This document shows, piece by piece, positions 30,460 through 39,980 of a stretch of DNA of 64,000 nt (position 1 is its first letter; every line of letters starts with the position of its first letter). The position numbers were made by a program, and so were the translations under genes. The stretch comes from an uncultured Cohaesibacter sp. (GTDB lineage Bacteria; Pseudomonadota; Alphaproteobacteria; Rhizobiales; Cohaesibacteraceae). Below the pieces are notes generated by a model. That model was not told where the DNA came from and made no database searches. It saw only the letters and a program-made list of their open reading frames with translations. Location of the stretch: the NCBI RefSeq assembly GCF_963676275.1, contig NZ_OY781091.1:1962775-2026774 (forward strand), given 5' to 3'.

Positions 30460-31041
30460 CTAGTGGGAAACCAGCCCTGCAAAGCCCATGAAGGACAGGG
30501 ACAGAAAACCGGCGGTGAGAAAGGCAATCGGCGTTCCCTTGAACAGTGCGGGAACATCGGCCAGCTTGATGCGTTCTCTAAGGCCGGCAAACAGCACCAG
30601 CACCAGCGAGAAGCCGAGCGCCGAGCCCAGCCCGAAAAGCACGCTCTCAAACAGGGTGTGATCTTCCTGAATATTGAGCAGCGCCACCCCGAGCACGGCG
30701 CAGTTGGTGGTGATCAGGGGCAGGTAAATGCCAAGACGCTGATGCAGAACCGGCGAGAATTTGTGTATCGCCATTTCCGTGAACTGGACGATGGCGGCAA
30801 TCAGCAGGATAAGGGTCAGGATGCGCAGATATTGCAAGTCGAAGGGCTCCAGCAGAAGCTTCTCGATAGCCCATGCGGCCGTTGCCGCCAATGTCAAAAC
30901 GAAAGTGGTGGCAAAACCCATGCCCATCGCTGCCGACAGCTTGTTCGACACGCCCATGAAGGGGCACAGGCCGAGAAATTTGACCAGCACCACATTGTTG
31001 ACGAGCGCCGTTTCCAGAAGGATCAGCAAAGTATGTTCCAT
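30460..31041 (-). CDS. rnfA: Rnf electron transport complex subunit A
   Basis: Six-helix membrane subunit (193 aa), paired with RnfE in inverted topology. It has [18 protein letters not shown] and [15 protein letters not shown], whose cysteines hold the intramembrane Fe-S centre shared with RnfE. I start it at the ATG at 31041; the open frame reaches 31386, but that would pass through the promoter. A sigma-54 promoter sits about 60 bases upstream, making rnfA the first gene of the NifA-controlled leftward operon. Confidence 0.94.
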
Positions 31042-31118: not shown

Positions 31119-31241
31119 AATGGCGGAAGGGCTGGAGAGAATTGGCCCGAACAGGCTGATTTCCGCTCGCCACCGGCATATCTCGCCTTTCGGTCATTTC
31201 TGAAGCATTTGCTACAAAAATGCGCGAGCGCCGATTTTCAT

Positions 31242-31257
31242 TGTAGCAAACACGACA
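31242..31257. promoter_or_regulatory. NifA upstream activator site (rnfA/nifL divergent region)
   Basis: TGT-AGCAAACACG-ACA fits the NifA site TGT-N10-ACA. It lies about 85 bases upstream of the predicted nifL-like start and about 157 bases upstream of the rnf start, so it could serve both divergent promoters. Confidence 0.7.
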
Positions 31258-31308: not shown

Positions 31309-31324
31309 CGGCACGCTTGTTGCA
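31309..31324 (+). promoter_or_regulatory. Sigma-54 promoter of nifL-nifA
   Basis: CGGCACGCTTGTTGCA matches the -24/-12 consensus with GG-N10-GC spacing (GG 31310-31311, GC 31322-31323). Predicted start near 31335, which rules out the ATG at 31337 as start of the downstream gene and favours 31367. NifA would thus activate its own operon. Confidence 0.78.
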
Positions 31325-31366
31325 TCTGTCTTGTAAATGGAATTTTCAAAAGAGCGACAGGCCGCA

Positions 31367-32197
31367 ATGACAGAACAACTTGCCAAACGGGCTCATGCCC
31401 CATTCTACACCGTGGAATGCGCTTCGCGCTGCCAGTTGGTGGAGTTCCAGAAGCAGGAATATGAGAAGGCCCGGCTGAACGCGATCCGCGCCCGCATGGC
31501 CGAGACCGAGATGGAATATCGCACGCGCGAAGTGATCGACGGTGCGCTCTATCTTCTGCAAAAGCCGCTCAATGTGATGACTGCGCTCTCCAACAATCTC
31601 CAGCGCAGCGGCTGCAGCGTCAGAACGCCGGGCTGCATGCCCATGGGATGCGCACTGGATGAAGCGCTGGATGCCGGACATGAGGCAGCGCGCACCCTGA
31701 AACTCTCACTACCGAACGACAAGCATATTCCGCACGCGCCGGTCAATATCAATGAAGCGATAAGAGACTGTCTCATCATCTCAGCCGATCACATTGATGC
31801 CTGTGGCATCGAGGTTTTCTGGCGGGCCAGCTCAGACCTGCCGATGATCCTGTGTGATGATATCACCGTGCGCGTTCTGCTGCGGACGCTGCTTGATAAT
31901 GCCATCAACGCCATAGGGGAGAATGGTGCAACCGCCAGAGAGGTTCGCGTCATATCGCGCGTTGGTGCTGACAGAATGGTCGAAGTCTGCATTCAGGACA
32001 CCGGACCGGGCATAGACCGGGCCGCCAGAACAAAGGTTTTCGAACCATTTTATACAGCCTGGCAGGCCGGACCACACCATGCGGGGTTGGGGTTGGCCAT
32101 CGCCAGACAGATCGTGGCAGACCTGCATGGAGACATAGAAGTCCGCGAAAGCAATGTACGCGGTTCTACGATTTGTGTGAGCCTGCCTGCCTGTTAG
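31367..32197 (+). CDS. NifL-like regulator lacking PAS domains (kinase-like C-terminal half only)
   Basis: Cytoplasmic protein of 276 aa placed directly before nifA, as nifL is in Azotobacter and Klebsiella. After a short N-terminal coil with two cysteines (residues 18 and 22) comes a NifL H-domain-like helix pair ([19 protein letters not shown], with no phospho-accepting histidine) and an intact GHKL ATPase: N box [14 protein letters not shown]1 [11 protein letters not shown] box [11 protein letters not shown]2 [11 protein letters not shown]. Full NifL is about 500-520 aa with two N-terminal PAS domains, one binding FAD as redox sensor; these are absent. The nucleotide-binding part probably still inhibits NifA in response to ADP or GlnK; that is inference. 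Start chosen at 31367 from the promoter position. Confidence 0.78.
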
Positions 32198-32222: not shown

Positions 32223-33860
32223 ATGAGCATTCAGTGTCCAGCGACGTCGGATGAAGTCATCACTCACGATGATGGATTATGCCCCAAGCCCGTCTTCTGT
32301 TCCTTTTATAGAAGGGAGCTGGAGACCCTTTACAAAGTCAGTCAATTACTGGGGCGCTCTCTCGATTTGCATGATACAGCGCGAGAAGTCCTGCGCCTTC
32401 TGCATGAAGAGGGGCGCCTGCATTATGGTATGATCTGCCTGCTGGACAAGGAAAGCGGGTTGCTGAGGATCATCGACATTCATCAGGACGAGGCGACCTT
32501 TACCAAGAATGTCAGCTATCTTCCGGGCGAAGGCATTGTCGGTTCAATCCTGAGCGAGAAAAAACTGATTGTCGTGCCACGCATCGCCGAAGAGCCGCGT
32601 TTTCTCGATCGGCTCGGAGTCTATGATCCGCAGCGCCCATTCGTCGGTGCGCCGATATTTCTCGGCTCGAACGAACCGGTAGGCGTCTTTGCCGCGCAGC
32701 CGAATTTCGCCGACAAGTTTCTGGAAGACAATGCAAAACTGATGCAGATGATCGCCTCGCTGATCGGGCAGGCCATCCTGCTTTCCAGTTCGGTGCAGGA
32801 AGAGCAGGAAAAGCTGCGTGCCGAAAGGGACAGCCTGCGCCGCAGGGTCAAGCGTCAGCACGGCTTCGAGAATATCATTGGTGAAACCGACGCCATGCGG
32901 CTGGTCTTCGATCAGGTGCGCATGGTTGCCAAATGGAACACGACGGTGCTCATTCGCGGTGAAAGCGGAACCGGCAAGGAACTGATCGCCAACGCCATCC
33001 ATTATAATTCCCCTCGTGCGAACGAGCCCTATCTCAAGCTCAATTGCGCGGCCCTGCCGGACAATCTGCTGGAATCCGAACTGTTCGGCCATGAGAAGGG
33101 GGCCTTTACCGGTGCGACCTCAATGCGCAAGGGGCGGTTCGAACAGGCCGATGGCGGCACGCTGTTTCTGGATGAAATCGGCGAGATTACCCCCGCCTTC
33201 CAGTCAAAGCTTCTGCGTGTATTGCAGGAGGGTGAATTCGAGCGGGTCGGTGGCAACAGGACCCACAAGGTCGATGTCCGCATCATCGCGGCCACCAACA
33301 AGGATCTGGAAGCCGCAGTTGAATCCGGCGATTTCAGGGAAGATCTCTATTATCGTCTCAATGTGATGGCAATCAACATGCCGTCCTTGCGCGAACGGAT
33401 GGATGACATTCCCGAACTGGCCCGCTTTCTGATCGGCAAGATCGGTCAGCAGCAGGGGCGGCCACTCACGCTCAAGGACAGCGCCATCCGTTTGCTCATG
33501 CGCCACAGCTGGCCGGGCAATGTCCGCGAGTTGGAAAATTGTCTTGAGCGCGCCTCTGTCATGAGCCCGGATGGGGTGCTTGACCGCGATGTTGTTTCTC
33601 TCTCGGGGTTGCCGGAGAAAGCCCTCATAGGCGTCCCCGCTCAACCTTTACCGCCAGTGCTCAAGGCACCTGCTGCGGGTGAGCAGGACTCGGCGGAAAA
33701 GGCATGGCAAAATGAAGAGCTGGATGAACGCGAAAGGGTCATCGCGGCGCTCGAGGAAGCCGGTTGGGTGCAGGCCAAGGCGGCACGCCTGCTCGACATG
33801 ACCCCGCGCCAGATTGCCTACCGCATCAAGATACTTGGAATCTCGGTCAGACGAATCTGA
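32223..33860 (+). CDS. nifA: Nif-specific sigma-54 activator NifA (gamma-type, no interdomain cysteine motif)
   Basis: Master activator of the nif genes, 545 aa. Domain order: N-terminal GAF domain (about 25-195), AAA+ domain with GESGTGKE Walker A, the sigma-54 contact loop GAFTGAT, Walker [12 protein letters not shown] and [13 protein letters not shown], then a Fis-type helix-turn-helix at the end ([19 protein letters not shown]). Oxygen-sensitive alphaproteobacterial NifA proteins carry a C-x11-C...C-x4-C cluster between the AAA+ and DNA-binding parts; here that linker contains only one cysteine (NCLERA). This matches NifA proteins that depend on NifL for sensing. Cysteines at about 5, 20 and 26 precede GAF. 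It follows the NifL-like gene by 25 bases. Confidence 0.96.
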
Positions 33861-36019: not shown

Positions 36020-37288
36020 ATGGTGCCCGCACTCACGAGCAAACCGGCAGAAGAGATCGCGCCGGGAGTGAACTGGATCGGTGCTTTTGATCCGGACCTG
36101 CGAACCTTTGACCTGATCCTCAAGACGGCCAACGGCACCACCTACAATGCCTATGCGGTACAGGGTGCCGAAGGGGTGGCGATCATCGATACGGTCAAGG
36201 AGGAGTTTTCCGGGCAGTTTTTCGACCGTCTGGAACAGGTGACAAGCTATGAGGCGATCAGGGCCGTGGTGCTCAATCATCTCGAACTTGATCATGCCGG
36301 CGCCTTGCCCGAGCTGATGCGCCGCGCCCCTCACGCCCATATCTATGTTTCCCAACGAGGGCTCAAGCTGTTGCAGGCGACCCTCAAGGATGAGTTGGCG
36401 CATTATCACTATACACTGACCGATGATGGCGACAGTCTGGATCTGGGTGGGCGGGTGTTGCAATTTGTCATGACGCCCTATCTGCACTGGCCCGAGACCA
36501 TGTGCAGTTTTCTGCTGCCCGACCGGATCCTGTTTTCCTGCGATGTGTTTGGTGCGCATTTCTGCGATCCGCGCCTCTATAACGATCTGGTCGGTGACTT
36601 CCGCTTTTCCTTTGAATATTACTTCAGGCATATCATGCGGCCCTTCAAAAAATGGGTGCTGCAGGCGATGGATAAGATCGAACCTCTCGCGCCGGAGATG
36701 ATCGCTCCCTCCCATGGCCCCATCTTGCGAACCCGCCCGATGGACTATGTCAAAAGCTACCGGCTGCTTTCCGGCTCTCATCTGCCAAACGAGGTTGAAG
36801 GCAAGGAGAAAAGCCTGCTGATCTTCTATCTCAGTGCCTATGGCGCAACCGCAGATATGGCACGCTCGGTCTATGAAGGCGCGAGCGCAATCGAAGGCGT
36901 GCGTGTCTCCCTCTATGATTTGCAGGGGGGCGAGGTGGAGCCCTTTGTTGATCTGATTGAGGGGGCTGACGGCATGATGTTTGGCTCGCCCACCATCAAT
37001 GGCGATGCGGTCAAGCCGATCTGGGACCTTCTTGCCTCCCTGATTGCCATCGATACCCGCGGCAAGGTCGGCGCTGCCTTCGGCTCCTATGGTTGGTCCG
37101 GCGAGGCCGTTCCCATGATCGAAGATCGCATGCGCGGCCTGAAAATGCGTGTGCCGGAAAAGGGGAAGCGCATCAAATTTCATCTAACAGAACAGGAACT
37201 CGAAGAATGCCGGAGCTATGGCCAGGCAATCGCCGAGCTTCTCTCTGGCAAGGCAAGGCCGAAGGTCATCGACTTTGCGGAACTCTGA
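36020..37288 (+). CDS. A-type flavodiiron protein (FprA family), O2 or NO reductase
   Basis: A 422-aa flavodiiron protein: beta-lactamase-like diiron domain (1-260) followed by a flavodoxin domain (about 265-410). All diiron ligands are seen: HLELDH, the histidine of PYLHWPET, the aspartate of FSCDVFGAHF and the histidine of PSHGPI. The FMN loop is YLSAYGATADMARS. Such enzymes reduce O2 to water or NO to N2O using reduced ferredoxin/rubredoxin-type donors. It starts 3 bases after the dicluster ferredoxin and is followed by two 2Fe-2S ferredoxins, so donor and enzyme are co-expressed under NifA. Oxygen removal for nitrogenase is the likely job. Confidence 0.92.
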   Translation: MVPALTSKPAEEIAPGVNWIGAFDPDLRTFDLILKTANGTTYNAYAVQGAEGVAIIDTVKEEFSGQFFDRLEQVTSYEAIRAVVLNHLELDHAGALPELMRRAPHAHIYVSQRGLKLLQATLKDELAHYHYTLTDDGDSLDLGGRVLQFVMTPYLHWPETMCSFLLPDRILFSCDVFGAHFCDPRLYNDLVGDFRFSFEYYFRHIMRPFKKWVLQAMDKIEPLAPEMIAPSHGPILRTRPMDYVKSYRLLSGSHLPNEVEGKEKSLLIFYLSAYGATADMARSVYEGASAIEGVRVSLYDLQGGEVEPFVDLIEGADGMMFGSPTINGDAVKPIWDLLASLIAIDTRGKVGAAFGSYGWSGEAVPMIEDRMRGLKMRVPEKGKRIKFHLTEQELEECRSYGQAIAELLSGKARPKVIDFAEL

Positions 37289-38693: not shown

Positions 38694-39086
38694 TCAGCTT
38701 GTCGCCTTGATATGTTGTGCCAGCAGGCTGTCCATGCTGTCGGCGTGGCTGTTGAACCAGTGCGGCAGACTTGTAACGAAGGCATGGCCGAAGTCGAGCT
38801 TTCCCGATTGCACTTTTTCATTGGTATTGTGCATCTGTCTGAGCATGCTGTCATGCTCGGCCATATGCTCCACCTGCCCGGAAAAGTTGGTTTCTTCCAT
38901 CAACCGGTTTTCAAATGCAAATTGCTCTTGCGTATGATCAAGCAACTGGATGAAGAGAGATCTGAAAATGGAAGGATCCATCGTCTCTCCCAGTCTGTTC
39001 ACAATAAGTGTAAATTGTTGATGGGCATAGTCCATCTCATCGACGCCCAAAAGGTGCCTTCCTTCGTCCCACTCTATCAAAGTCAT
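38694..39086 (-). CDS. Bacteriohemerythrin
   Basis: Four-helix O2-binding diiron protein of 130 aa. Ligands are recognisable: His in DYAHQQF, His and Glu in DHTQEQFAFEN, two His in EHMAEHD, and the last His/Asp pair in WFNSHADSMD. ATG at 39086 (MTLIEWDEG) is chosen because GGGGA lies 8 bases upstream; the frame also opens at 39101. It lies 30 bases after the SIR2-like gene and shares its sigma-54 promoter. A role in O2 scavenging or sensing near nitrogenase is inferred. Confidence 0.9.
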   Translation of the reverse strand: MTLIEWDEGRHLLGVDEMDYAHQQFTLIVNRLGETMDPSIFRSLFIQLLDHTQEQFAFENRLMEETNFSGQVEHMAEHDSMLRQMHNTNEKVQSGKLDFGHAFVTSLPHWFNSHADSMDSLLAQHIKATS

Positions 39087-39116
39087 TTTGTGTCCCCACA
39101 CATTTAGTTCTACAAC

Positions 39117-39980
39117 TTATAGCATAGTGGGACAGGATTCTGGAATAGCTGCGAACTCAAGAAATTCAGTTAGCTCCATATTCATGATTATGATTTTTTT
39201 CTTTTCGCAATAGCGAATTTCTTTTTCTGAAGGCTCTTTGATCAGCGCCCAGCCCGCCGGATCACCTGCATCATAGATCAGGTCCGACATCACCATGCGC
39301 TCTGTGTCGCGGATGAAACGCATGCCCAAAAACAGATATTGCTTGCCCTTGCGATAGTTTTTCAAAAAAGGAGGAACACCAAATCCGCCCATTAATTCAG
39401 TGAGATAGTCGACGAAGTCGGCGTCGGAAGCAATATAGCTGGGGGTGGGGGACGGTGAGCCGAGTGGCTTGAAGAGGATGGGCAAATCCGCACCCATGGT
39501 TTCTGGCTCGATGGGGCTATAGCGTGTGCCATCATATCGGTTGATGACAAAGCGATAGTCGGTGCCGCCGATGCGCGCAAGACCCCTGACCAGATAGTGG
39601 GGTGTGGTTTCAAAGCTCTCTTGCAATTGCAAGTCCCGGTTGATGTCGATCACATAGCGGGGTGAAAGCGACTGGATCCAGTCATGCAGAGCAGCGCGCG
39701 TCCATTGATTCTCTTTATAGAGCCGGGTCAGAAACTGTTCGATGAAACGGCGGCCGCGCTTGAGTTCCAGATTCATCGCCGCACGCGGAAACTCATACAT
39801 AAGCTTGGGCGCCATCGGGCGACCTTTATTCATCGCAAGGATCAGGCCGTCGCTGGTGGCTGGCATAGCTTCGCCGGATATGACGTTACGCGCATCAAAC
39901 AGAGCGCCCGGCCCGAGATAGGGCACGACCTCACCTCGGGAGACTTTTTCTATGATCTGTTCGATAAGTTGCCTTGTCAT
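39117..39980 (-). CDS. SIR2-like protein of the nif cluster
   Basis: A 287-aa soluble protein. The N-terminal VVPYLGPGAL resembles the NAD-binding glycine loop of SIR2 folds, and YVIDINRDLQLQESF resembles the T-x-N-x-D nucleotide strand of SIR2-like (STALD/SIR2_2) proteins, so an NAD-handling Rossmann domain is likely. It lacks the zinc-binding cysteine pairs of protein deacetylases. Divergent from nifH with its own -24/-12 promoter, and followed by hemerythrin. Function unknown; possibilities are NAD sensing or hydrolysis linked to nitrogenase. Family assignment is moderate. Confidence 0.68.
   Translation of the reverse strand: MTRQLIEQIIEKVSRGEVVPYLGPGALFDARNVISGEAMPATSDGLILAMNKGRPMAPKLMYEFPRAAMNLELKRGRRFIEQFLTRLYKENQWTRAALHDWIQSLSPRYVIDINRDLQLQESFETTPHYLVRGLARIGGTDYRFVINRYDGTRYSPIEPETMGADLPILFKPLGSPSPTPSYIASDADFVDYLTELMGGFGVPPFLKNYRKGKQYLFLGMRFIRDTERMVMSDLIYDAGDPAGWALIKEPSEKEIRYCEKKKIIIMNMELTEFLEFAAIPESCPTML

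Follow-up and report, generated by a model that had tools for sequence, protein, structure and literature searches.

Described NifL systems

NifL is the textbook flavin-based oxygen sensor and normally stops nitrogen fixation under oxygen. In Azotobacter vinelandii, NifL and NifA form a 2:2 complex in which the AAA+ domain of NifA contacts the GHKL and DHp parts of NifL and oligomerisation of NifA is blocked (commentary PMC12998174). A charge change at Glu356 of A. vinelandii NifA allows it to escape NifL (PMC8219145), and NifL(143-519), a man-made truncation without PAS1, studied as a linker-deletion variant, retains the response to fixed nitrogen and loses the response to oxygen (PMC3466315). 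Klebsiella pneumoniae NifL is likewise an anti-activator of NifA and uses its C-terminal domain for complex formation (PMC9866876). NifL was stated in 2016 to be absent from the Alphaproteobacteria (PMC4999443); a review of 2019 shows it in this class, with a tree of 60 proteins (PMC6490700). In alpha- and betaproteobacteria without NifL, the oxygen response is attributed to cysteines of NifA at the end of the AAA+ domain and in the following linker (PMC12727197, PMC10590331).

We analysed a stretch of 64,000 nucleotides (the window) from the genome of an uncultured Cohaesibacter sp.; coordinates below are positions in this window unless stated otherwise. The nifA gene (32223..33860, plus strand; TIGR01817, 669.6 bits at a cut-off of 528.85) is preceded, at a distance of 25 bp, by a gene encoding a protein of 276 aa (31367..32197, plus strand), identified as a PAS-less nifL by its match to TIGR02938 (E = 3.3e-53) and by its orthologues in the genus, and called mini-NifL here. 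The rnf operon diverges from it, starting with rnfA (30460..31041, minus strand; PF02508, order kept in relatives, start codon picked by reading). The same arrangement is found in A. vinelandii, where a NifL with the same H (DHp-like) and GHKL module (9qq6_A; TIGR02938) is encoded in an operon with nifA and an rnf operon diverges alongside (PMC6490700). However, mini-NifL has neither PAS1, the FAD domain, nor PAS2, the H box contains Tyr instead of His, and there are additional cysteines conserved in the genus. The K. pneumoniae protein, which shares the proposed role of mini-NifL, is its structural reverse, as it is reported to have a PAS domain and a C-terminus with little homology to GHKL (PMC9866876). 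Full-length NifLs of other Hyphomicrobiales (L046/L079, L047/L131, L048/L130) are 44-46% identical to mini-NifL over the shared part, but keep their PAS domains, as seen by Pfam in the two that were scanned, L046 and L047.

A NifL protein without PAS domains

The first-pass annotation had read the gene as a NifL relative of 276 aa with an H region lacking histidine, a complete GHKL ATP site and no FAD-PAS half, and had considered two ways in which this could fail, namely closer similarity to unrelated histidine kinases and decay from a PAS-containing NifL encoded elsewhere. The reading stood up to profile search, alignment and structure prediction alike, beginning with the length of the protein, which agrees with the ORF translation. 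An in-frame ATG at 31337 would extend the protein to 286 aa; this start was rejected, as the codon is not conserved and lies 13 bp from the sigma-54 box, whereas conservation and position relative to the promoter favour 31367.

TIGR02938, the NCBIfam equivalog model of NifL, covers residues 27-273 of mini-NifL with model positions 250-492 of 494 only and scores 180.9 bits, compared to 89 bits for the next NCBIfam model. The whole-protein cut-off of 242.45 bits is not reached because half of the model is absent. When just the C-terminal halves of five full-length NifLs are scored with the same model, they reach 201-295 bits, four of the five being under the cut-off, so that mini-NifL is somewhat below this range, yet near it. 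Pfam finds HATPase_c (PF02518, residues 164-274) and no PAS domain in mini-NifL; among six relatives scanned, the two full-length ones contain PAS and HATPase_c and the four PAS-less ones only HATPase-type domains. The alignment with NifL begins past PAS2, and thus neither PAS1 nor the relay domain PAS2 is present, with a few residues at most remaining of the latter.

The helical hairpin of the H region occupies residues 19-113 (31421..31705, plus strand), as defined by the AlphaFold2 helices and the alignment with 9qq6_A, the A. vinelandii NifL chain of the NifL-NifA complex. At the position of the phospho-acceptor, 9qq6_A has His and mini-NifL has Tyr62 (31550-31552), which is invariant in the 16 alphaproteobacterial NifLs aligned. 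Mini-NifL therefore lacks the H-box His that marks a two-component histidine kinase. The GHKL nucleotide-binding domain with motifs N, G1, F and G2 is encoded at 31736..32194 (plus strand), and its residues N178, D211, G213, G215, G240 and G242 are invariant in all 23 aligned NifL rows.

9qq6_A was the best of 44 matches in a PDB sequence search (E = 2e-34; next 4e-13) and the first of 536 Foldseek matches with the AlphaFold2 model as the query (E = 3e-15, TMq 0.75), making A. vinelandii NifL the closest PDB match in both sequence and structure. The model (five-sequence alignment, mean pLDDT 75.5, the five models spanning 41.5 to 75.5) has a long helix at residues 19-80 and a second helix at 91-113, followed by the GHKL fold. 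Profile, motifs, sequence and fold thus agree on a NifL-type H region with a GHKL domain.

Loss of PAS1 and PAS2 in place

Gene order was compared in 17 loci. The order rnf (diverging)-nifL-nifA-nifB-fdx-fprA, with the same directions, is found in all 11 Cohaesibacter loci that are long enough (L078 spans just 3 kb and covers nifL-nifA-nifB) and in the three Hyphomicrobiales loci with a full-length NifL (L079, L130, L131). The more distant loci L132 and L134 share rnf-nifL-nifA, and L134 also nifB and a ferredoxin gene. Between rnfA and the shared part of nifL, the full-length loci contain approximately 0.8 kb more DNA, which is the size of the 270 missing residues. Since full-length NifL is encoded at the same locus in three related Hyphomicrobiales, PAS1 and PAS2 were lost in place.

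In the NifL tree, built from an alignment of 23 rows, Cohaesibacter and the metagenome-assembled genome BM303 form one clade (100/99) inside the alphaproteobacterial NifL clade (100/100). The Rahnella NifL and that of G949 (L138), the latter without a blastp match, were left out of the alignment and the tree. Gene order, tree and co-occurrence with nifA show that mini-NifL and full-length NifL, encoded at one and the same locus beside nifA, share a common origin. Judged by its sequence, mini-NifL of Cohaesibacter is a natural form of NifL without PAS domains, descended from known NifL. Cohaesibacteraceae and the family of BM303 have Nif proteins that were reported to group with gammaproteobacterial ones, with a common donor (PMC11208148), and in a phylogeny of nitrogenases Cohaesibacter likewise falls with Gammaproteobacteria (PMC8399215).

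The mini-NifL gene is under purifying selection and is not decayed. The median dN/dS is 0.062 (0.019-0.091) in 28 of the 66 genus pairs, the other 38 having been dropped as not usable or with dS of at least 1.5. The alternative of a decaying copy, or of an unrelated histidine kinase that by chance lies beside nifA, could draw on the score under the NCBIfam cut-off. However, this is opposed by the purifying selection, by co-occurrence with nifA in 12 of 12 genomes, by the locus, which is that of full-length NifL, by the lack of another NifL in the genome and of the phospho-acceptor His, and by NifL being the best match in profile, sequence and fold. As far as sequence allows, this alternative is refuted, and we consider it extremely improbable.

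Distribution of PAS-less NifL

The host genome (5.03 Mb, one contig, 99.99% complete) was searched with the NifL model, and neither a PAS-bearing nor a second NifL was found in it. The next match covers PAS only (99 bits, model positions 13-182, in an ORF of 1018 aa), and the next one reaching the kinase half of the model scores just 65.5 bits, so a second NifL elsewhere in the genome was rejected and the PAS-containing parent of a decayed copy, as envisaged in the first-pass annotation, is missing. Orthologues of mini-NifL are present in 12 of 18 Cohaesibacter genomes (E 1e-30), among them C. marisflavi (L076) and C. haloalkalitolerans (L077), and a close NifA (E 1e-120) is present in the same 12. 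In the remaining six genomes, both are missing at these thresholds; two of them are below the mark of 90% completeness and 5% contamination.

In a sample of the order, the NifL model matched 21 of 397 genomes at E 1e-35. In the 12 genus genomes and in BM303 (G398), the match starts at model positions 246-250. Of the other eight matches, three span the full length and exceed the cut-off, and five score only 124-127 bits, under the cut-off, and also cover PAS parts of the model. In the phylum sample, 27 of 398 genomes matched at E 1e-42. All seven matches over the cut-off start at model positions 1-3 and are full-length; besides the host genome, the remaining 19 are under the cut-off and occur in ORFs of 782-1436 aa. 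In the class sample of 385 genomes, the model at E 1e-40 gave the host NifL alone, and with mini-NifL as the query the other matches were kinases of at most 76 bits. The family-level samples for BM303 and two full-length relatives comprised only 2 and 3 genomes.

Another PAS-less NifL (316 aa, WP_205434745.1, L123:3806-4756) was found on a plasmid of Methylococcus sp. EFPC2. Similarly to mini-NifL, it matches only the C-terminal part of TIGR02938 (model positions 251-493). Unlike mini-NifL, it scores over the cut-off (280 bits), does not adjoin nifA and has a different place in the tree, where it forms a long branch whose placement is unsure. This separate place makes a second loss of PAS likely, and the Methylococcus protein is apparently the product of an independent event. 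Thus the first-pass reading holds as to descent from NifL and absence of the FAD-PAS half, but not as to uniqueness: PAS-less NifL is rare in the sampled genomes, with further cases in BM303 and on the Methylococcus plasmid. Searches of an open-access library of papers turned up no account of a NifL lacking its PAS domains. Mini-NifL is easily overlooked because it scores under the annotation cut-off.

Upstream region

A candidate sigma-54 (-24/-12) promoter of nifLA is located at 31309..31324 (plus strand) with one mismatch to TGGCACG-N4-TTGCW, and a predicted NifA upstream activator site TGT-N10-ACA at 31242..31257 (plus strand). Both patterns are weak by window-wide counts: there are 22 matches to the sigma-54 pattern with at most two mismatches, compared to 15.5 expected, and 13 matches to TGT-N10-ACA, compared to 7.2 expected. 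Yet they are conserved in the genus. When the upstream regions of 12 Cohaesibacter species are aligned, the two sites and a half site facing rnf, TTGTAGCAAA (31208..31217, minus strand), form conserved islands. TGT-N10-ACA precedes nifL in all 12 genus members, whereas the strict sigma-54 expression is found in 11, with one variant base in the twelfth. This conservation and the 25 bp gap bear out the earlier proposal that the gene lies directly upstream of nifA under a shared sigma-54 promoter. The half site possibly serves the divergent rnf operon as a NifA site.

FNR-like sites were also considered. Their matches in the window are at chance level, and none with two or fewer mismatches falls between rnf and nifL; an FNR-like site at this promoter was therefore rejected.

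Partner NifA and control by oxygen

The NifA proteins were compared for the cysteines that are linked to oxygen sensitivity. CX4C was observed in four of 28 NifAs, those of Sinorhizobium, Cupriavidus and Bradyrhizobium, assumed to be without NifL and used as references, and that of Methylococcus EFPC2. None was found in the 12 Cohaesibacter NifAs, in BM303, or in 11 others whose partner is NifL or a PAS protein resembling it. Similarly, three columns at the AAA+ end and in the linker contain Cys in the three references and Methylococcus and in none of the 12 Cohaesibacter proteins. Cohaesibacter NifA thus lacks the features of the oxygen-sensitive alpha- and betaproteobacterial type. In Methylococcus, the cysteines of the plasmid-encoded NifA could compensate for the PAS-less NifL. 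In Cohaesibacter, where both CX4C and the AAA+ cysteines are missing from the aligned proteins, compensation by that route is excluded.

On the other hand, Cohaesibacter NifA contains an N-terminal CPKPVFC (C20 and C26; 32280-32300) before the GAF domain. CPxPx(F/Y)C is present in all 16 alphaproteobacterial NifAs partnered with NifL, including L078, L079, L130 and L131, and in none of 12 others. This pair is possibly involved in redox reactions or metal binding. One tentative explanation, compatible with the preferred one given below, is that oxygen control has moved elsewhere: to the CPxPxFC pair, to upstream regulators of the FNR or FixL type, or to proteins encoded in the nif region that would remove oxygen, such as the flavodiiron-type protein (36020-37288) and the hemerythrin-like protein (38694-39101). 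The distribution of CPxPxFC is consistent with this, as is the linkage of the flavodiiron-type gene to nifB in all 11 genus loci of sufficient length and in the three full-length alphaproteobacterial loci. However, both features also occur together with PAS-bearing NifL, and therefore neither arose as a replacement for PAS; the motif predates the loss. The lack of FNR-like matches between rnf and nifL, at up to two mismatches, also argues against this possibility. We consider it somewhat less probable than even.

The flavodiiron-type protein, with an ODP beta-lactamase fold and a flavodoxin domain, could serve the nif cluster as an enzyme that removes oxygen. The hemerythrin-like protein (minus strand), encoded between nifQ and nifH, is just under the Pfam cut-off and may be an oxygen carrier or sensor. 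A SIR2_2-like protein with a weak Pfam match is encoded inside the cluster (39117-39980, minus strand); in the plasmid search, the SIR2 family label was also found under a Rhizobium nifA match. Three short PAS ORFs near positions 835400, 1603500 and 4167000 of the host genome (L148, L147 and L149) are among the PAS matches of the NifL model in that genome. A stand-alone PAS protein acting in trans was set aside, as these ORFs read as chemotaxis PAS domains of the Aer type and one of them precedes a receptor-like ORF.

Cysteines of mini-NifL

The first-pass annotation had pointed to two cysteines, at residues 18 and 22, as a possible input to the regulator. Both are present in the translation, as a Cys18-x3-Cys22 pair where the first helix begins (31418..31432, plus strand), and both are invariant in the 12 genus members. 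The same is true of C90, C135 and C276, the last of which BM303 and the three full-length alphaproteobacterial relatives also have. A second pair, Cys83 and Cys90, flanks a loop of variable length between the helices of the H region (31613..31636, plus strand). C83 is present in ten of the 12, and the other two have Cys two residues earlier.

These observations could mean that the FAD sensor has been replaced by a new oxygen or redox sensor, based on thiols or a metal, in the H region. The C18/C22 pair, perhaps recruited from remnants of PAS2, would bring four cysteines per dimer to the start of the helix, suitable for a disulfide, zinc or an Fe-S centre, C83 and C90 would close the hairpin loop, and oxidation would switch the H-GHKL module, through the helices that bind NifA, into the NifA-binding state. 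Consistent with such a sensor, C18, C22, C90 and C135 are retained in all 12 members, although four of these proteins are just 57-61% identical to mini-NifL, and C83 stays in place, or moves by two residues in two members, despite the change in loop length. Neither BM303 nor Methylococcus nor any of nine full-length NifLs, those of the Hyphomicrobiales among them, has Cys in the columns of C83, C90 and C135. The cysteine content is 2.7-4.0% in the genus proteins, compared to 0.8-2.3% in the C-terminal halves of the nine full-length ones. In addition, the known oxygen cysteines are absent from NifA, so that a sensor would otherwise be missing.

However, several observations point the other way. 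C18 aligns, in one alignment, with a conserved cysteine of PAS2, and in an alignment anchored at K29 the position of C22 is Cys in L130 and L131, two near-identical proteins among the nine full-length NifLs; thus both C18 and C22 could be left over from PAS2. (The PAS2 cysteine itself, in the motif RW[FY][SA]C, occurs in all nine full-length NifLs examined, L079 and L130-L137.) Two of the nine, L134 and L135, have Cys one column from C90. The PAS-less NifL of BM303 lacks the C18/C22 pair, and therefore the loss of PAS did not need cysteines of this type. The rate of invariance, five of 11 cysteines (45%), is the same as for the other residues (119 of 265). Finally, in the AlphaFold2 model the two pairs lie at opposite ends of the 62-residue helix. 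With the genus-conserved cysteines, a redox input through thiols or a metal may have been regained, but we consider such a sensor rather unlikely.

Proposed mode of regulation

The explanation we prefer is that mini-NifL is probably an anti-activator of NifA, controlled by nucleotides and PII protein and blind to oxygen as far as FAD is concerned. It is a NifL orthologue that has lost PAS1, the FAD redox sensor, and PAS2, the relay, and is left with the dimerising H region and the GHKL domain. Like NifL in the A. vinelandii complex, the mini-NifL dimer would attach to the AAA+ domain of the NifA encoded next to it and keep NifA from oligomerising. ADP on the GHKL domain and unmodified GlnK would favour the inhibitory state, and nitrogen limitation, through 2-oxoglutarate and uridylylated GlnK, would release the brake. 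Since inhibition would be favoured by ADP and unmodified GlnK, the brake would report energy and fixed-nitrogen status, and not oxygen via FAD.

This reading is based on the retention of the parts involved and on the behaviour of the A. vinelandii truncation. The GHKL and DHp parts by which A. vinelandii NifL contacts NifA are those kept in mini-NifL, and Glu356 of A. vinelandii NifA is conserved as E363 in the Cohaesibacter protein. The host genome contains two PII genes, each with the T-loop Tyr; as read from the translations, the first precedes a glutamine-synthetase-like ORF and is GlnB-like, and the second precedes an AmtB-like ORF and is GlnK-like. NifL(143-519) likewise lacks the redox sensor and keeps the nitrogen response (PMC3466315), which is predicted for mini-NifL as well. 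Control by ADP/ATP and PII would follow from the intact GHKL domain and by analogy with the A. vinelandii work. Binding of NifA, this control, autoregulation and the lack of any oxygen response at all are the steps that we infer.

However, NifL(143-519) keeps PAS2 (PMC3466315), whereas mini-NifL, a natural protein, is without it. Since the laboratory truncation dropped PAS1 alone, a locked-on or inert state of mini-NifL is possible. A locked-on protein, or one acting as an expression buffer, would inhibit NifA constitutively at a level set by stoichiometry, with relief just by 2-oxoglutarate acting on the GAF domain of NifA. In A. vinelandii, locked-on variants of PAS2 or of the H domain act without PAS1 (PMC3466315), and the adjacency of nifL and nifA, which share a promoter that has a NifA-type site, would provide homeostasis through a feedback loop. 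On the other hand, all motifs of the nucleotide site are conserved, which would be unexpected if ADP and ATP were ignored, and a PII gene is present before the AmtB-like gene. A locked-on mini-NifL is therefore, in our view, unlikely.

Mini-NifL, with its 276 aa, offers a natural, selected minimal NifL for studies of ADP and PII control alone and for the engineering of nif regulation that is independent of oxygen. A NifL without the FAD sensor, partnered with a NifA without the cysteines of the alternative sensor, raises the question of the route by which oxygen enters nif control. The retention of the module that grips NifA suggests that it is worth keeping without the oxygen sensor, and the marine genus Cohaesibacter probably handles oxygen in another way or with a new sensor.
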